A DNA stretch of 64,000 nt. Source: Phycicoccus jejuensis. Its GTDB lineage: Bacteria > Actinomycetota > Actinomycetes > Actinomycetales > Dermatophilaceae. Made by a program: the position numbers and the translations under genes. The stretch spans positions 62,001 to 126,000 of the forward strand of contig NZ_JOEE01000003.1 in NCBI RefSeq assembly GCF_000720925.1. Reading direction: 5' to 3'. The notes below the pieces were generated by a model. That model was given only the letters and a program-made list of their open reading frames with translations, ran no database searches and had not been told where the DNA came from. Below, one piece after another: positions 23,175 to 62,830 of the stretch (within the stretch, counting starts at the first letter, position 1; every line of letters begins with the position of its first letter).

Positions 23175-23380
23175 TGCTCCTGCGGGTCGTCGACTCGTGG
23201 GGTCGAGGACGACGGCTCCGGCTGCTGACCGGGCACCACCGCGGTACCACCTCGCTTGCCGCCCCGGAGGGCGACCGCTCTTGCACCAGGTCGTGACGTG
23301 ACCCCGACGTCCGGGTCTAGTGAGGACTCGCGTCCCGTTCTTCCGGAGGCTTACCGCTGATGACGGCTCGAGCGCCTGTG
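23175..23380 (-). promoter_or_regulatory. T-box leader of ileS, actinobacterial short-stem type
   Basis: The minus strand holds the T-box core GGTGGTACCGCGG at 23251-23239. Its UGGU can pair with the ACCA end of uncharged tRNA-Ile. A stem-rich region with GGAAGAACGG lies upstream, and an ATC that could be the isoleucine specifier is at 23361-23359. A -10-like TATCAT (23392-23387) would start the RNA near 23380. There is no obvious terminator before the ileS GGAG site, so control is probably of translation, as in other actinobacterial ileS T-boxes. Confidence 0.88.
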
Positions 23381-23445
23381 GGCCCGATGATACCGGGGCC
23401 GGGTGCGTGGTACCCACCGACGTCCCGTGGGGGTAGGCTCACCGC

Positions 23446-23653
23446 GTCGCACGTGAGCGCGACACCACACGCACCCGCCTGGGGGAAGCCGGTCGAAGTC
23501 CGGCACTGTCCCGCAGCCGTAGGTCACCCGCGAGGGTGGCGAGTCGGAATGCCCGGCGGGCGCGAGCGGCTCCATCACACCCGTCGAGGAATGCGGGACG
23601 GAGCCCGGTTGCCGGGGTGTCCCGGTGGGTCGGGCGTTCGTCACGAACCGCTC
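23446..23653 (+). promoter_or_regulatory. Cobalamin riboswitch controlling the B12 capture/ECF operon
   Basis: The conserved B12-box core is present: GGGGGAAGCCGGTCGAAGTC, then CCGGCACTGTCCCGCAGCCG (about 23481-23520), followed by GAGTCGGAATGCCCGG. A -10-like TAGGCT is at 23434-23439. GAGCGG (23564-23569) can pair with CCGCTC (23648-23653), which touches the AGGAAGG ribosome site of the next gene, so a translational switch is plausible. It sits back to back with the ileS T-box. Confidence 0.93.
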
Positions 23654-23664
23654 AGGAAGGCCCC

Positions 23665-25293
23665 ATGTCCCCCACCACGCTCCGTCCCGGCGCCCGCGCG
23701 CTCGGGGCCCTGCTGCTCTCCGCAGCGCTCGTCGGCGCGCCCGCCGTGGCGCACGCCGACGACGCGTCGCCCTCCCCGTCCGCCACCGCCACGAGCTCGC
23801 CGTCGGCGACCACGACGCCGGACGCCTCCGCGTCGCCGAGTCCCTCGGAGACCGCCGAGCCGAGCCCCTCGGCCACCGCGACCGCCGAGCCGAGCCCGTC
23901 GGCCACGACGCCCGCCTCGCCGAAGCCCTCGGCCTCCCCCACCGACGAGGCCCCGACCGGTCTCGTCCCCGGTGGAGACGCCCGCCGCTACGGCGTCGCG
24001 GCCGCTCAGGGTCCCGCCACCTCCACGAACCCCGTGCTCGTCGGCGCCAACTACCTCGAGGAGCAGCTGCGCGACGGCGGGCACCACTTCTCCGTCGACG
24101 TGGCCGGGACGCTGTACGCCGACTACGGCGTGACCGCCGACGCGGTGCTCGCCCTCGCGGCCGCCGGCACCGGCCAGGACGAGGCGACCCTGGCGACCCA
24201 GTACCTCGCCGACAACGTCAAGAACTACGCCAGCTACGACGACGGCGACCCGACGACCGTCGACGACGTCTACGCCGGCTCGGTCGCCAAGCTGCTCAAC
24301 GTCGCGGTCGCCCAGGGCGTCGACCCGACCGCCTTCGGCGGCTGGGACCTCGTTGACACGCTCGAGGGCCTGGAGAACGCCCAGGGCCGCTTCGCCGACC
24401 AGTCGCCGTGGGGTGACTACTCGAACGTCTTCGGGCAGTCCTTCGCGCTGATCGGCCTGCACCGTGCGGGCGCCACCGTCAGCGCCGACGCGCGCGCCTA
24501 CCTTCTCGCGCAGCAGTGCCCGGGTGGCGGGTTCGCCCTCGACATGACCGACGCCGGGTGCACCGACGCCGCGAACGCCGACCCCGACGCGACGGCGATG
24601 GCCGTCCAGGCCCTCGTGGCGGTCGGTGGCGCGTCCTCGGCCGTGTCCGACGCCCTGGACTACCTCGCCGGCCGCCAGAACGCCGACGGCGCCGTCGGCG
24701 GTGCCGGCCCGACCGCCGCGGTCAACGCCAACAGCACCGGGCTCGCCGGCCAGGCCTTCCTCGCCGGGGGCCGCTCCGCGCAGGCCCGTGCCGCCGTCGG
24801 CTACCTGACCGGCCTGCAGTACGGCTGCACCTTCCCCACGGCCCTGCGCGGTGGCATCGCCTACGACCAGGCCGCCTACGACGCGCAGCGCACCGCGGGC
24901 CAGGACGCCACCCCGGGCGACCAGGACCGCCGCTCCACCTCGCAGGCGCTCCTCGCCCTCGCCGGCACCCCGCTCGGCTCGGTGACCGCCCGCGGCGCGG
25001 ACGCCGAGGCCCCGGACCTCGCCTGCGCGTCGGCCTCGCCGACGGCCAGCCCGTCCGGGTCCGCCACCTCCACCTCCGCCCCGACCTCGACGGGTGGCTC
25101 CACGAGCGACCCGACCGGCACCGCGGGCTCCGGTGGCGGTTCGACCACCGACCCGGTCGCGGCGGGGCCGACCGGGTCGCTGGCCCAGACCGGGTCCGAG
25201 CCGCTCACCCCGGTGCTCGTCGGGCTCGTCCTGCTCGTCCTCGGCGGCGTCGCCGTCGCCCTCTCGCGCGGCCGTCGGGGGGCGCACGCCTGA
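23665..25293 (+). CDS. Secreted alpha/alpha-barrel protein resembling the N-terminal domain of intrinsic factor/transcobalamin, with sortase-type tail
   Basis: 542 residues from the ATG behind AGGAAGG. There is a signal peptide (cleavage after AHA, about residue 30), then a Ser/Pro/Thr-rich linker to about residue 95. About 350 residues of helical repeats of the prenyltransferase/terpene-cyclase barrel type follow (for example FGQSFALIGLHRAG, DATAMAVQALVAVGG, NSTGLAGQAFLAGG). Four cysteines could form two disulfides. A second linker leads to LAQTG (506-510), a hydrophobic helix and a basic end: a cell-wall sorting signal of the LAxTG (class E sortase) type. The riboswitch and downstream ECF genes make corrinoid binding the best guess. 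Not a cyclase: no acidic catalytic motif seen. Confidence 0.85.
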   Translation: MSPTTLRPGARALGALLLSAALVGAPAVAHADDASPSPSATATSSPSATTTPDASASPSPSETAEPSPSATATAEPSPSATTPASPKPSASPTDEAPTGLVPGGDARRYGVAAAQGPATSTNPVLVGANYLEEQLRDGGHHFSVDVAGTLYADYGVTADAVLALAAAGTGQDEATLATQYLADNVKNYASYDDGDPTTVDDVYAGSVAKLLNVAVAQGVDPTAFGGWDLVDTLEGLENAQGRFADQSPWGDYSNVFGQSFALIGLHRAGATVSADARAYLLAQQCPGGGFALDMTDAGCTDAANADPDATAMAVQALVAVGGASSAVSDALDYLAGRQNADGAVGGAGPTAAVNANSTGLAGQAFLAGGRSAQARAAVGYLTGLQYGCTFPTALRGGIAYDQAAYDAQRTAGQDATPGDQDRRSTSQALLALAGTPLGSVTARGADAEAPDLACASASPTASPSGSATSTSAPTSTGGSTSDPTGTAGSGGGSTTDPVAAGPTGSLAQTGSEPLTPVLVGLVLLVLGGVAVALSRGRRGAHA

Positions 25294-26168
25294 TGCGTCG
25301 CCTCCTCGCCCGCCTCCTCGCGGTCACCGCCGCGGCGTCCCTGGCCACCGCCGGGGTCGTCGCGGCGGCGGCCCCGGCGTCGGCCGCCGCGTGCTCCGGC
25401 ACGACCGGTGTCACCGTCGTCGTCGACTTCGGCTCCTCGACGACCGTGGCCTGCGCCCCGGGGGACCCGACGAGCGGCCTCGACGCCCTCGCCAAGGCCG
25501 GCTTCTCCGTCACCCAGGTCCAGCGGCAGCCGGGCTTCGTCTGCCGGATCAACGGCGCCCCGAGCTCGGCCGGGTGCGTCAACACCCCGCCCGCCTCGGC
25601 GTACTGGGCGTACTTCCACGCCTCGCGCGGGGGCTCGTGGAGCTACAGCAGCCTCGGCGCGGGCTCCTACGACCCGAAGCCGGGCAGCGTCGAGGGCTGG
25701 AAGTTCGGCTCCGGCGGCGCCCCCGGCACGGCCCCGCCCGCGAAGACGGCGACGTCGACCCCGAAGCCGACCTCCACGCCGAAGAAGACCAGCAAGCCCA
25801 CCTCCACCCCGCGGAAGACCACGAGCGCGCCGCGCACGACGTCGGGCTCGTCGGCGACCTCGGGCTCCTCGACCACGGAGGGCGCGTCCCCGTCGGCGTC
25901 GTCCTCGACGGCGAAGAAGCCCTCGGCGACGAAGGCCCCCTCGGCGTCGGCGACCCCCACCGGCGCACCGACGACGTCGGCCTCCCCCTCGGCGACCGCG
26001 GCCGCGACCCCCGGCAGCGACCCGTCCGACGCCCCGAGCCTCGCCGCGGCGCCGACCAGCGCCGAGGCCTCCGACGGCGGCGGCCTCGGCACGCTCGCCG
26101 TGGGCGCGGCGCTCGTCCTGCTCGTCGGCGGCGGCGCCGTGTGGGTCTCGCGCCGTCGCGCGTCCTGA
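25293..26168 (+). CDS. Secreted DUF4430-type protein (transcobalamin C-terminal domain-like), membrane-anchored
   Basis: 291 residues; the ATG overlaps the previous stop (TGATG). A signal peptide (to about residue 31) precedes a domain of about 110 residues with four cysteines, TSGLDALAKAGFSVTQVQ, FVCRING and an aromatic stretch ending in SVEGWKF. This matches DUF4430, the family related to the beta domain of cobalamin-binding animal proteins. A Thr/Ser/Pro/Lys-rich spacer (about 145-255) and a C-terminal membrane helix with a basic end follow. With the barrel protein it would supply both halves of a B12 carrier. The assignment is from pattern, not from a search. Confidence 0.82.
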   Translation: MRRLLARLLAVTAAASLATAGVVAAAAPASAAACSGTTGVTVVVDFGSSTTVACAPGDPTSGLDALAKAGFSVTQVQRQPGFVCRINGAPSSAGCVNTPPASAYWAYFHASRGGSWSYSSLGAGSYDPKPGSVEGWKFGSGGAPGTAPPAKTATSTPKPTSTPKKTSKPTSTPRKTTSAPRTTSGSSATSGSSTTEGASPSASSSTAKKPSATKAPSASATPTGAPTTSASPSATAAATPGSDPSDAPSLAAAPTSAEASDGGGLGTLAVGAALVLLVGGGAVWVSRRRAS

Positions 26169-26189
26169 GCCGGCTGGGATGATGCCACG

Positions 26190-27311
26190 GTGACCCGATC
26201 GCTCCCCCGCGCCGTCCACCCGGGCGCCTGGTGGGGATGGGCGATCGGGCTCGCCGTGGCCGTCAGCGCGGTGACCAACCCGCTGCTGCTGCTCCTCGCG
26301 CTCGCCGTCGCGGCCCTCGTGGTCTCGGCCCGCCGTGGGTCCTCGCCGTGGGCCCGGGCCTTCCGGCTCTACCTGTGGCTCGGGCTGGCGATCATCGTCG
26401 TGCGCGTGGTCCTCCACGTCGCCGTGGGGCTGAAGTTCGGCACCCTCCGCGTGCTCCCGCTGCCCGAGGCGACGCTGCCGTCGTGGGCGGCGGGCATCCA
26501 GGTCGGCGGCGACGTCTACCTCGAGGGGCTGCTCGGCGCCGCGACGCTGGGCCTGCGGCTCGCCGTCATCATCGCGTGCATCGGGGCGGCCAACGCCCTC
26601 GCCAACCCCAAGCGCCTGCTGCGCAGCCTGCCCACCGCCCTGCACGAGGTCGGCGCCGCGGTCGTCGTGTCGGTCTCCGTCGCACCGCAGCTCGCGGAGT
26701 CGGTGCAGCGGGTACGGCGCGCCCGCGACCTGCGCGGTGAGACGCGCAAGGGCATCCGGGCCGTCCCCGCCATCGCCCTGCCGGTGCTCGAGGACACCCT
26801 CGAGCGATCCCTGCTGCTGGCCGCCGCGATGGACTCGCGCGGCTACGGCCGCAGCGGCACCGCCGCCCCACGGCAGCGCCTCGTGACGGGAGCGGTCACC
26901 CTCCTCGGGCTGCTGCTCACCGCCGTCGGCCTCTACGGCGTCCTCGACGCCTCGACCCCGACGCTCATGGGCACCCCGTCGCTCGTCGTCGGCCTCGGTC
27001 TCGCGCTGACCGGCCTCTGGCTCGGCGGCCGCCACGTGCGCACCACCACCTACCGACCCGACACCTGGGGCGGCCCCGAGTGGCTGACCGTCGCCTGCGG
27101 CGTCGTGCCTGCTGCCGTGCTCACCGTCGTCGGCCGCACCACCCCGGACGCCCTGGCCATGCCGCTCGAGCCGCTGGGCGTCCCCCCGCTCCCCCTGCTC
27201 GCCGTCGTCGGGCTGCTCGTCGCCGCCCTCCCGGCGTTCCTCACCCCCGAGCCGCCGCGCCCGCCGTCGCGCGTGCCCGAGCGCGGTGCCCGGGAGGTGG
27301 CCGGTGTCTGA
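26190..27311 (+). CDS. ECF transporter transmembrane (T) component, CbiQ family
   Basis: 373 residues from GTG 26190. About eight predicted membrane helices. The cytoplasmic coupling region contains VRRARDLRGE and AMDSRGYGR, the two Ala-Arg-Gly-type coupling motifs by which EcfT touches the ATPases. It lies between the two secreted proteins and the ATPase gene in one operon. The C-terminal 110 residues add two or three further helices compared with a minimal EcfT. Confidence 0.9.
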   Translation: MTRSLPRAVHPGAWWGWAIGLAVAVSAVTNPLLLLLALAVAALVVSARRGSSPWARAFRLYLWLGLAIIVVRVVLHVAVGLKFGTLRVLPLPEATLPSWAAGIQVGGDVYLEGLLGAATLGLRLAVIIACIGAANALANPKRLLRSLPTALHEVGAAVVVSVSVAPQLAESVQRVRRARDLRGETRKGIRAVPAIALPVLEDTLERSLLLAAAMDSRGYGRSGTAAPRQRLVTGAVTLLGLLLTAVGLYGVLDASTPTLMGTPSLVVGLGLALTGLWLGGRHVRTTTYRPDTWGGPEWLTVACGVVPAAVLTVVGRTTPDALAMPLEPLGVPPLPLLAVVGLLVAALPAFLTPEPPRPPSRVPERGAREVAGV

Positions 27312-28947
27312 CCAGGCCATCGTCCTCGAGTCGGTCTCGGTGACCCCCGCCGGCGCCGACGCCCCCGTCCTGCGCGACGTCGACCTCGTCGTCGAGGAGG
27401 GCGAGCTCGCGCTCGTCGTCGGGCGGACCGGCTCGGGCAAGTCGACCCTGCTCGGCGCGATGTGCGGGCGCGTGCCGCACTTCACCGGCGGCACCCTGCG
27501 CGGGCGCGTGCTGCTCCACGGCCGCGACACCCGCGAGCACCGACCGCGCGACCTCGCCGACCTCGTCGGGGTCGTCGGCCAGGACCCGCTCGCCGGCTTC
27601 GTCACCGACACCGTCGAGGAGGAGCTCGCCTACGGCATGGAGCAGCTCGGCCTCTCGGCGACGACGATGCGCAAGCGCGTCGAGGAGACGCTCGACGTCC
27701 TCGGCATCCCCGAGCTGCGCGGCGCGAACCTGCGCGAGCTCTCCGGCGGGCAGCAGCAGCGGGTCGCCATCGGCTCGGTGCTGACCGCCCACCCGCGCGT
27801 CATCCTCCTCGACGAGCCGACCTCGGCCCTCGACCCCACCGGCGCCGAGGAGGTGCTCGCGACGATCACCCGGCTCGTCCACGACCTCGCGGTCACGGTC
27901 GTCGTCGCCGAGCACCGGGTCGAGCGGGTGCTCCACTACGCCGACCGCGTGCTGCACGTCGGCGCCGGCGGGGTCGTGCGCGACGGCGAGCCGGCCGAGG
28001 TCATGCGGTGGAGCGACATCGCCTCGCCCGTCGTCGAGCTCGGCCGCTGGGCCGGATGGCGCCCGCTGCCCCTGTCGGTGCGCGACGCCCGGCGGGCCTC
28101 CCGGGGCCTGCGGGCGGAGCTGGCCGACGCGCCGGACCCTGCGGTCGAGGAACGCCCGGGCGGGGCCCCCGTCCTGCGCGCCGCCGGAGTCGTCGTGCGC
28201 CACCCGGGCGACGTCATCGCCGTCGCCGGGGTAGACCTCGGCCTGGCCGCGGGCGAGGTCACCGCCCTCATGGGGCGCAACGGCTCGGGCAAGTCGAGCC
28301 TGCTGTGGGCCCTCCAGGGCTCGACGCGGCCGACGTCGGGCCGGGTCGAGGTGGCCCGTCCCTCGGGCGCCCCCGTCGAGCCGTCCGAGCTCTCGCCGGC
28401 CCGCCGGCGGGCCGTCGTCGGGCTCGTGCCGCAGACCGCGACGGACCTGCTCTACCTCGACACCGTCGGCGGGGAGTGCACGCAGGCCGACCGTGAGAGC
28501 TCCGTCCCCGCGGGGACGTGCGCCGGGCTCCTTGCCCGGCTGGCCCCGGGCATCCCGGCCGACCGGCACCCGCGCGACCTCTCCGAGGGGCAGAAGCTCG
28601 CCCTCGTGCTCGCCGTGCAGCTGACGGCCGACCCGCCCGTGCTGCTCCTCGACGAGCCGACGCGCGGCCTCGACCCCACCGCGAAGGCCGCCCTGACGAC
28701 CACCCTGCGCGACCTCGCCGCCCGCGGCCGGGCCGTCGTCGTCGCGACCCACGACGTCGAGTTCGTCGCCGAGGTCGCCGACCGGGTCGTCGTCATGGCC
28801 GCCGGCGAGGTCGTCGCCGACGGCCCGACCGCCGAGGTCGTCGTCTCCTCCCCCGCGTTCGCGCCGCAGGTCGCCAAGGTCCTGCGCCCGGGTCCGTGGC
28901 TGACCGTCGACGCCGTCCGGACCGCGCTCCCGGCGGGTGCCCGGTGA
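27304..28947 (+). CDS. ECF transporter duplicated ATP-binding protein (fused A and A')
   Basis: 547 residues from GTG 27304 (GGAGG six bases upstream, overlapping the T gene). Two complete ABC domains. The first has GRTGSGKST (40-48), LSGGQQQR and LLDEPTSALD; the second has GRNGSGKSS, a variant signature LSEGQKLAL and LLDEPTRGLD. Fusion of the two ATPases is common in actinobacterial ECF systems. It powers uptake together with the T and S proteins encoded on either side. Confidence 0.93.
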   Translation: MSDQAIVLESVSVTPAGADAPVLRDVDLVVEEGELALVVGRTGSGKSTLLGAMCGRVPHFTGGTLRGRVLLHGRDTREHRPRDLADLVGVVGQDPLAGFVTDTVEEELAYGMEQLGLSATTMRKRVEETLDVLGIPELRGANLRELSGGQQQRVAIGSVLTAHPRVILLDEPTSALDPTGAEEVLATITRLVHDLAVTVVVAEHRVERVLHYADRVLHVGAGGVVRDGEPAEVMRWSDIASPVVELGRWAGWRPLPLSVRDARRASRGLRAELADAPDPAVEERPGGAPVLRAAGVVVRHPGDVIAVAGVDLGLAAGEVTALMGRNGSGKSSLLWALQGSTRPTSGRVEVARPSGAPVEPSELSPARRRAVVGLVPQTATDLLYLDTVGGECTQADRESSVPAGTCAGLLARLAPGIPADRHPRDLSEGQKLALVLAVQLTADPPVLLLDEPTRGLDPTAKAALTTTLRDLAARGRAVVVATHDVEFVAEVADRVVVMAAGEVVADGPTAEVVVSSPAFAPQVAKVLRPGPWLTVDAVRTALPAGAR

Positions 28948-29822
28948 GCGCGGCCGACGCCCGCCCCGGGCGCGCCATCCGGATGCGGCCGCGCTCGACC
29001 GTGGCGGTCGCGCTCGTCAGCCTCGCCGGCCTCGTCGCGTTCGGCTGGCCGCTGCTCGTCGACCCGTCCTCGGGCCTGGCCCACTCGGCCGACGCCCCGC
29101 TCGTCTTCGCCCTCGTCCTGCCGCTGCTGCTCGCGGTCGTCCTCGCCGAGATCGCCGAGGGCGGGATGGACGTCAAGGCGGTGGCGATGCTCGGGGTGCT
29201 CTCGGCCGTCGGCGCCGCCCTGCGTCCGCTCGGTGCCGGCACCGCCGGGCTCGAGACCGTCTTCTTCCTGCTCGTCCTCGGCGGGCGCGTCTTCGGCGCC
29301 GGGTTCGGGTTCGTCCAGGGCGCGGTCACGCTCTTCGCGTCGGCCCTCATCACCGGCGGCGTCGGCCCGTGGCTGCCCTTCCAGATGCTCGGCGCCGCGT
29401 GGGTCGGGATGGGCGCCGGCCTCCTGCCGCGGGCGCGCGGCAAGGCCGAGGTGGTCCTGCTCGCGGGCTACGGGGCGCTCGCCGGCCTCGCCTACGGGTT
29501 CCTGCTCAACCTGTCGTTCTGGCCGTTCTCGACCGGCACCGGTGGGGGGCTGTCGTTCGTCGCGGGGGCGCCCCTGCTGGAGAACCTCCACCGGTTCGTC
29601 GTCTTCAGCCTCGCGACGAGCCTCGGCTGGGACCTCGGGCGCGCCCTGACCAACGTCATCCTCGTCTCGGTCACCGCCCGGCCGGTGCTCGGGGCGCTGC
29701 GCCGGGCCGCCCGGCGGGCCGCGTTCGAGGCGCCCGTGGCGTTCGAGGAGGCGGGCGACGCCGACGCCCCGGCGAGCCCCCGGTCGCGGGCGCCGGGAGA
29801 GTTGGCACAATCGCCTCCATGA
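28944..29822 (+). CDS. ECF transporter substrate-binding (S) component, probably for cobalamin/corrinoid
   Basis: 292 residues from GTG 28944 (GTGA overlap). About six to seven membrane helices, with the conserved stretch GGVGPWLPFQMLGAAWVGMG in the middle and a variable, soluble C-terminal tail. The sequence looks like the CbrT-like branch of S components, but that is from memory of the pattern. Substrate specificity for B12 is inferred mainly from the cobalamin riboswitch and the transcobalamin-like proteins in the same operon. Confidence 0.85.
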   Translation: MSAADARPGRAIRMRPRSTVAVALVSLAGLVAFGWPLLVDPSSGLAHSADAPLVFALVLPLLLAVVLAEIAEGGMDVKAVAMLGVLSAVGAALRPLGAGTAGLETVFFLLVLGGRVFGAGFGFVQGAVTLFASALITGGVGPWLPFQMLGAAWVGMGAGLLPRARGKAEVVLLAGYGALAGLAYGFLLNLSFWPFSTGTGGGLSFVAGAPLLENLHRFVVFSLATSLGWDLGRALTNVILVSVTARPVLGALRRAARRAAFEAPVAFEEAGDADAPASPRSRAPGELAQSPP

Positions 29823-30358
29823 ACCCCCTCGAGCTCGACCGCGACCCCGCCTGGCTGAGCCGCGAGGAGCTCGACTCGGCGCGCGAGAAGCTGCCGATCC
29901 TCTACGTCGACGCCGTGCCCGTGCGGGTCGACGACCGCGGCGAGGTCACCGCCCTCGGCGTGCTGCTGCGCCTCGACGACGAGGGCCGCGTCTGCCGCGA
30001 GCTCGTCTCGGGCCGTGTCCTGCACCACGAGCGCATCCGCGACGCGCTGCTGCGCCACATCGAGAAGGACCTCGGCCCGGTGGCCCTGCCGCGCATCCCG
30101 GTGGCTCCCCAGCCGTTCACGGTGGCCGAGTACTTCCCGACGCCCGGGGTCACGCCCTTCCACGACCCGCGCCAGCACGCGGTCTCGCTCGCGTTCGTCG
30201 TGCCCGTGGCCGGCGACTGCGCCCCGCAGAACGACGCGCTCGACCTCACGTGGCTGACCCCGGCGCAGGCGCTCGACCCGGGCGTGCAGGCCGAGATGGA
30301 CCGCGGCCACGGCGTCCTCCTGCGGCAGGCGCTCGCCCACCTCGGCCACTCCGTCTGA
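29819..30358 (+). CDS. DUF4916 (NUDIX-like) protein
   Basis: 179 residues. It resembles the DUF4916 family of actinobacteria, distantly NUDIX-like (ILYVDAVPVRV, LHHERIRDALLRHIEKDLGP, AVSLAFVVPVAGDC), but the full NUDIX box is not seen, so hydrolase activity is doubtful. The ATG overlaps the S-component stop (ATGA), yet a -10-like CACAAT (29806-29811) seven bases upstream would give a leaderless transcript of its own. It may be unrelated to B12 transport. Confidence 0.8.
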   Translation: MNPLELDRDPAWLSREELDSAREKLPILYVDAVPVRVDDRGEVTALGVLLRLDDEGRVCRELVSGRVLHHERIRDALLRHIEKDLGPVALPRIPVAPQPFTVAEYFPTPGVTPFHDPRQHAVSLAFVVPVAGDCAPQNDALDLTWLTPAQALDPGVQAEMDRGHGVLLRQALAHLGHSV

Positions 30359-61747: not shown

Positions 61748-62830
61748 ATGAGCCAGCCACGTCAAGCCGGGGACCGCCGCCCCACCCTGCGCGACGTGGC
61801 CGAGCTGGCCGGGGTCTCGACCTCCACCGCCTCCCTCGTGTTCAGCGGCAAGGGGCCGGTCTCGCCGGGCACCGCCGACCGGGTGCGCGCGGCGGCCGAG
61901 GAGCTGGGCTTCGCTGGCCCCGACCCCCTCGCCTCCTCCCTGCGGCAGGGCCGCGTCGGCACCGTGGCGGTCGTCGTCGAGGCCCCGCTGCGCGACGCGT
62001 TCCGCGACCCCTTCGCGCTCGCCGTCCTCGACGGCCTCGCCGAGGAGCTCGAGGCCGCCGGCCGCTCGATGCTGCTCGTCGCCCAGCCGGCCGACGACCC
62101 GGTCCGGGCCGTCGGGCAGCTCGCAACCCAGGCCGTCGACGCGGCCGTCTTCCCCCTCTGCGGCCTGCGTGACAACCCCGTCGTCGCCCACCTCGGCGCC
62201 CGCGGCATCCCGCTCGTCGGCGCCGGCTCGCCCGGCGACCCCGGCGTCGCGCACGTCCGGGTCGACGAGGCCGGCGCGATCGGCCTGACGACCCGGCACG
62301 TCCTCGGGCTCGGGCACACCCGGGTCGCGTCGGTCGCGATGGCGCTGCACCCCGCGGCCACGACCCGCGCCGTGACGGCCGCCGACCTCGACGGCGCGCT
62401 CTACCCGGACGCCGGCGGCCGCCTGCGCGGCTTCTGGGACCTCGTGGGCCCGGACGCCCCCGTCGTCCAGGCCGCCGCCCTCACCGTCGGCGCAGGCGAG
62501 GCGGCGGGCCGCCTCCTCCTCGACCGCCCAGCGGCGGAGCGCCCGACCGCCGTCGTCGTCCAGGCCGACCTGCTCGCGGCCGGCGTCGTCCGCGCGGCCC
62601 AGGCCCTCGGGCTCGACGTCCCGGGCGACGTGTCCGTCACCGGCTTCGACGGGGTCGACCTGCCGTGGCTCGACCAGACGCTGACCACCGTCGTCCAGCC
62701 CGGGGCCGAGAAGGGCCGCGCCCTCGGCCGGCTCGTGCGCGCGGCCCTCGACGGCGAGCCGGTCGCCGACGTCGACTTCGAGGTCTCGCTGCGGGTCGGC
62801 ACGACGACCGCTCCCCCGCCCGCCGCCTGA
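61748..62830 (+). CDS. LacI family transcriptional regulator
   Basis: 360 residues. N-terminal helix-turn-helix (TLRDVAELAGVSTSTASLVF) with hinge region, then a periplasmic-binding-protein-like ligand domain. ATG 61748 lies seven bases after a -10-like TATTGT, so translation is probably leaderless. Probably represses itself and the divergent MFS gene through the palindrome at 61707-61734. Confidence 0.93.
   Translation: MSQPRQAGDRRPTLRDVAELAGVSTSTASLVFSGKGPVSPGTADRVRAAAEELGFAGPDPLASSLRQGRVGTVAVVVEAPLRDAFRDPFALAVLDGLAEELEAAGRSMLLVAQPADDPVRAVGQLATQAVDAAVFPLCGLRDNPVVAHLGARGIPLVGAGSPGDPGVAHVRVDEAGAIGLTTRHVLGLGHTRVASVAMALHPAATTRAVTAADLDGALYPDAGGRLRGFWDLVGPDAPVVQAAALTVGAGEAAGRLLLDRPAAERPTAVVVQADLLAAGVVRAAQALGLDVPGDVSVTGFDGVDLPWLDQTLTTVVQPGAEKGRALGRLVRAALDGEPVADVDFEVSLRVGTTTAPPPAA

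Follow-up and report, generated by a model that had tools for sequence, protein, structure and literature searches.

A riboswitch-led operon of Phycicoccus jejuensis with a predicted split transcobalamin-like trap and its own ECF importer

The subject of this work is an operon of five genes led by a cobalamin riboswitch in the actinobacterium Phycicoccus jejuensis (assembly GCF_000720925.1). It lies in a stretch of 64,000 nucleotides, positions 62,001 to 126,000 of contig NZ_JOEE01000003.1, that was analysed as a whole and is referred to here as the window. The operon is likely to be a system for corrinoid capture and import that is repressed by vitamin B12. Its first two genes encode secreted proteins, which according to structure models contain an alpha/alpha toroid and a transcobalamin-type beta domain, and the other three encode an energy-coupling factor (ECF) transporter. 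The same set is found in many other actinobacteria, and in some of them the two surface domains occur naturally in one chain. The parts of this proposal that we infer are the corrinoid ligand, its binding in a sandwich between the two proteins, the hand-over to the importer, the attachment of the barrel to the wall and the direction in which the riboswitch responds.

Layout of the operon

The features of the operon are as follows.

23460..23595, plus strand: cobalamin riboswitch, short form, Rfam core at 23482-23554 (RF00174, own model R1, covariation)
23665..25293, plus strand: barrel gene, encoding a secreted alpha/alpha-barrel protein of 542 aa, SCO2321-like
25180..25194, plus strand: LAQTG wall-sorting-type motif of the barrel protein (read in the sequence)
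25293..26168, plus strand: beta-domain gene, encoding a secreted protein of 291 aa, SCO2322-like, with a transcobalamin-type beta domain modelled on 25380-25757
26190..27311, plus strand: ECF T component (EcfT, CbiQ-like; PF02361, 1.9e-10, 41.2 bits, cut-off 25)
27304..28947, plus strand: ECF ATPase, two ATP-binding cassette domains in one chain (PF00005, 1.6e-48, two stretches)
28944..29822, plus strand: ECF S component, substrate-binding membrane protein (PF12822 matches of family members, gene position)

A riboswitch followed by five contiguous genes had been proposed in an earlier sequence-only reading of the window, and this arrangement was borne out by the coordinates of the open reading frames and by an RF00174 match above the cut-off. 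The ends of the five genes overlap or nearly touch. The barrel and beta-domain genes are joined by an ATGA overlap, and the ATPase and S genes by a GTGA overlap.

The cobalamin riboswitch

The RF00174 match on the plus strand scores 33.8 bits, 2.3 bits above the gathering score of 31.5, and it is the only match above a gathering score in the Rfam scan of the whole window. The element is a short form in which 13 nucleotides stand in for 64 model positions and a large peripheral part of RF00174 is absent. Its core is nearly invariant across 40 homologous leaders (39 distinct), and 96.0% of the pair cells in the aligned leaders are standard. Cells changed on both sides number 69; shuffled alignments give 16.5 +/- 4.4 and slid versions 7-21. 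Counted more crudely, as pairs showing a double change, the figure is 7 against 4.8 +/- 1.0, and 17 of 500 shuffles reach 7. The presence of a riboswitch core is upheld by the Rfam score and these compensatory changes; these two are the structural evidence, since the leader folded alone did not differ favourably from its shuffles (z -0.76). A promoter and terminator scan of the leader found neither, nor any terminator-like site.

A regular-expression search for the core gave false matches, and a covariance model, R1, was used instead. It was built from 40 sequences, the window leader and 39 from loci L062-L121, so scores on those loci are partly circular, and the 129.2 bits that R1 gives the window leader hold by construction. 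Stronger Rfam matches precede the barrel gene in some relatives (for example 85.9 bits at L119), and the match at L118 is of the adenosylcobalamin (AdoCbl) type. Cobalamin riboswitches are common in the family, with at least one in 148 of 149 genomes. The P. jejuensis genome has one other above the cut-off (L001, G000:C10; 90.4 bits), which adjoins a partial frame with matches to ribonucleotide reductase alpha; models of class I lead the list for this frame, below their cut-offs. The position of this second riboswitch suggests a B12-dependent alternative enzyme.

Riboswitches of this class are described as off at high cobalamin (PMC11477304). The exact ligand of the trap cannot be read from the sequence, and it is conceivable, though somewhat unlikely, that the trap is real but mainly binds another corrinoid (cobinamide or other cobamides) or another tetrapyrrole. 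A known ECF importer of B12 also takes up the precursor cobinamide, as stated in PMC5997447 and PMC6593275. The cobalamin riboswitch, however, indicates that the product of importance is, at the least, cobalamin.

Conservation across actinobacteria

The gene set was followed in two surveys. In the first, 60 loci were chosen by SCO2321_fam score, 40 from the family and 20 from the phylum. All five genes are present in 46 of these loci, and they stand together in all eight of the 296 genomes that exceed the SCO2321_fam cut-off. Nine of the 60 loci have the barrel gene without the other four, and the remaining loci lack one to three genes, some of them at contig ends. At L110, L114 and L115, barrel genes are led by a riboswitch with none of the other four genes within 10-13 kb. 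Three clusters (L081, L121 and L166) have two pairs of barrel and beta-domain genes, with a riboswitch before each pair at L081 and L121.

The second survey started from the S component and confirmed 550 places. Its counts use the best 80 of these 550, a non-random selection made up of the loci most like the S gene of the window. At least 8.7 kb of upstream DNA was available for 58 of the 80, and the 22 with less were left out. The T component and the ATPase were found in 58/58 loci each. A beta domain lies upstream on the same strand in 55 loci with a conserved-core profile and in 54 with a longer profile, a barrel is present in 50, and a riboswitch lies upstream on the same strand in 55. Beta domain (longer profile), barrel and riboswitch occur together in 45 of the 58. 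This is a better test of the riboswitch than the loci used for R1, yet at least three of the 80 loci, L136, L141 and L146, apparently belong to the model genomes G065, G115 and G117, and two of the 58, L203 and L206, come from one strain. The organisms include Streptomyces, Nocardioides, Amycolatopsis, Lentzea, Actinomadura, Phytohabitans, Knoellia and Janibacter. Because the set recurs in many actinobacteria, it is probably a machine for B12 capture and import.

The beta-domain protein and its partnership with the barrel

The beta-domain protein has a signal-peptide-like N-terminus and, at its C-terminal end, a hydrophobic segment with arginines after it. A structure search with its predicted model returned the transcobalamin fold, and the model places a helix at 33-39 and strands at 44-46 and 54-57. 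The sequence-only reading had called the domain DUF4430-type, which holds by fold but not by sequence. PF14478 (DUF4430) has no match in the window protein, in its own genome, in 72 aligned proteins or in 36 diverse beta domains, and no sequence bridge to DUF4430 was found among the best 120 of 680 matches of a search with the diverse alignment. PF28005 is the only Pfam label among those best 120 matches. It is a precomputed label on most of the listed beta-domain relatives (P0121-P0349), and the Pfam scan of the window protein did not return it. The description of PF28005 could change the assessment of novelty. The reading had also equated the two surface proteins with the two domains of the animal carriers. 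The predicted fold of the beta domain agrees with this, and the barrel matches as a general toroid only; sequence searches of single proteins and of profiles against the PDB found no animal carrier.

Both domains are found in one open frame in 11 of 140 loci. The barrel comes first at L099 (same genus, in a genome of one contig), L063, L144 and L156, and the beta domain comes first at L147 (Crossiella), L157 (Nocardioides), L192 and L206 (Streptomyces), L213 (Actinomadura), L187 and L153. In the L099 fusion the barrel lacks its wall-sorting tail, the domains are closely spaced and their order is that of the animal carriers. L064 was dropped as a fusion, its barrel match (5e-16) lying in the tail beside the beta domain with a separate barrel gene present. 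In five genomes (G027, G070, G097, G114 and G123) the barrel gene lies away from the beta-domain and ECF operon. The operon has a riboswitch in four of them (not L221), and the barrel has its own in three (L024, L084 and L089; not L088 or L098). For G070, the neighbours of the barrel were checked within 3.6 kb of L024, and the S gene is on another contig. In a sixth genome, G003, the operon includes a barrel and is preceded by a riboswitch (L217), and another barrel gene, likewise behind a riboswitch, lies at a separate place (L086). A partnership of the two surface proteins is supported by the fusions in both orders and by the unlinked barrel genes, three of five with their own riboswitch.

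It could be argued that the operon imports B12 but that its surface proteins act as independent binders, one perhaps a store bound to the wall, instead of closing on one ligand. The two chains in the window have different ends, some loci have a beta-domain gene without a barrel in the examined stretch, and nine have the barrel alone. In frames of 952-1169 aa at L147, L157, L192 and L206, a single beta domain precedes two barrel stretches. Separate binding is nevertheless unlikely given the eleven natural one-chain forms in both orders and the animal carriers, which hold one B12 between both domains according to PMC1796856.

The ECF transporter and the need for B12

The claim of a complete ECF transporter was confirmed for the T component and the ATPase by Pfam and for the S component through its family. 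The ATPase also matches TIGR01166 (cbiO) with 223.3 bits, above the cut-off of 211.8. The S protein of the window has no Pfam match of its own, and 20 of the 25 members of its alignment, A3, match PF12822 (ECF_trnsprt; best 3.2e-9), four match PF07155 and none matches a cobalt S family. The A3 profile found no chain in the PDB at E up to 5, and thus none of the solved ECF S components. The S gene follows the ATPase gene in relatives too.

The genome encodes enzymes that use B12: MetH (1330.3 bits, cut-off 1010.85) and the N- and C-terminal domains of methylmalonyl-CoA mutase, above cut-offs. Corrin-ring synthesis needs more than three TP_methylases. The genome has only three TP_methylase matches, so the organism probably cannot make B12 de novo. 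One match falls in a frame that looks like a CobA-HemD fusion, with scores below the cut-offs of those models; the other two are at L130 and L132, and the frame scanned at L130 lies mostly beside its match. Only two FecCD permease matches were found, adjacent, FhuB-like and below the BtuC cut-offs. The genome may contain a further, unrelated B12 importer.

A CbiQ-like T component and an ATPase above the cbiO cut-off are also what a cobalt importer would have, with the surface proteins as accessories and the riboswitch as is usual for cobalt uptake. A cobalamin riboswitch precedes the cobalt importer CbiMNQO in C. difficile (PMC11477304). This reading is very unlikely and was rejected: the S family matches PF12822 and PF07155 and no cobalt family, the beta domain is predicted to have the transcobalamin fold, and the methylases needed to use cobalt in corrin synthesis are seemingly missing from the genome.

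The barrel protein

The barrel protein has a signal-peptide-like N-terminus and, as the sequence-only reading stated, an LAQTG tail. The LAETG domain NF041528 matches this tail with an E of 2.5e-4, below its cut-off, and the genome has four sortase matches above cut-off. The structure model (predicted local distance difference test score, pLDDT, 95.6) matches alpha/alpha toroids in general fold only. The nearest solved folds do not single out the animal carriers: they are type II terpene cyclases, which rank first, and sugar-processing toroids (epimerases and hydrolases), and the animal carriers are not among the 50 matches listed.

Class II terpene cyclases carry the acid motif DxDD. The full motif is present in none of 28 diverse and none of 91 close barrel members; no member has D at position 4, and 13 of the 28 diverse members have N at position 3. 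The barrel was rejected as a terpene cyclase on the absence of this motif. That it is a secreted enzyme of any such kind, a terpene cyclase or a sugar-processing toroid, is highly improbable, since fusion and common riboswitch control with the beta domain stand against the fold ranking, the profile match to squalene-hopene cyclase (2.8e-9), the SQHop_cyclase_C match (E 4.2e-4, below cut-off) and the invariant D at the third motif position in the 91 close relatives.

Proposed mechanism

When cobalamin is scarce the riboswitch would permit expression, and when it is plentiful the set would be shut. The barrel protein would be tied to the wall through its LAQTG tail, and the beta-domain protein, anchored in the membrane, would supply the other half of a transcobalamin-like trap. 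At the cell surface the two would most likely clasp a corrinoid and bring it directly to the S component, through which the module of the T component and the double ATPase would drive it inward.

A stronger form of this proposal is that the ECF transporter depends on the extracellular binding device, with wall-linked and membrane-linked halves that assemble only around B12, bridge wall and membrane and load the S component. This form is possible but tentative, with the balance slightly against it. ECF importers are usually regarded as needing no extracellular binding proteins, a picture that would change if the trap does feed the S component. On this view the split form, together with the fusions in both orders, would mean repeated splitting or joining of a transcobalamin-type trap in a system found across the actinobacteria. 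The SCO2321 and SCO2322 families would gain a function across Streptomyces and its relatives, and there would be a bacterial counterpart of intrinsic factor with halves that can be studied separately.

Neighbouring genes

A Nudix-like DUF4916 gene (29819-30358) overlaps the stop codon of the S gene (ATGA). A homologue is present in 36 of 128 S-gene loci (some genomes counted twice), on the strand of the S gene in 36/36 and often adjoining it. Upstream of the riboswitch, the ileS leader (window 23180-23460, minus strand) contains a stretch, GAGGTGGTACCGCGG, which we take to be T-box-like; Rfam gave no match on this leader even at E up to 1.

Comparison with known systems

The first two proteins of the window are remote members of the NCBIfam families SCO2321 and SCO2322, below both curated cut-offs (111.6 bits against 300 for the barrel and 23.6 against 85 for the beta-domain protein), and the family names give no function. 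A search for literature on SCO2321-2325 found nothing related, judged by title in the open-licence literature.

ECF-CbrT of Lactobacillus delbrueckii (PMC5997447) is a tested ECF-type B12 importer, which Rodionov et al. had predicted in 2009 on the basis of gene context. Other S components use the same energy module as CbrT, whereas the module genes of the window lie inside the operon, and the part of that paper available mentions no surface-trap genes, unlike the window. It may be that Rodionov et al. list actinobacterial transporters like this one already.

The animal carriers intrinsic factor, transcobalamin and haptocorrin likewise combine a toroid and a beta domain, and the predicted fold of the beta domain matches theirs. 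They differ in that both domains are in one chain, whereas in the window two genes next to an ECF importer encode them, and the two products are anchored differently. Searches at the level of sequence found no match between the carriers and the window proteins.

The closest precedent is that of Burroughs et al. in 2007 (PMC1796856). In the available part of their text, bacterial transcobalamin-like SLBB proteins are described with signal peptides and Gram-positive anchors, with toroids fused N- or C-terminally and in operons with CbiO and CbiQ. Their hosts usually lack key enzymes of B12 synthesis, and scavenging of B12 or its precursors was proposed. The clade described there sits in low-GC Gram-positives, planctomycetes and euryarchaea, whereas the window is actinobacterial, and no split pair or S component was noticed in that part of the text. 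In its main text "riboswitch" and "Streptomyces" do not occur and "actinobacteria" occurs once, about ComEA. The sequence-only reading had called a two-protein system of this type experimentally undescribed, and no such description was found in the open-licence literature; the claim of novelty was trimmed because B12 scavenging by toroid-joined proteins had been predicted in 2007. That prediction becomes directly testable, and the system of the window is a new form of a predicted kind and not a new kind.
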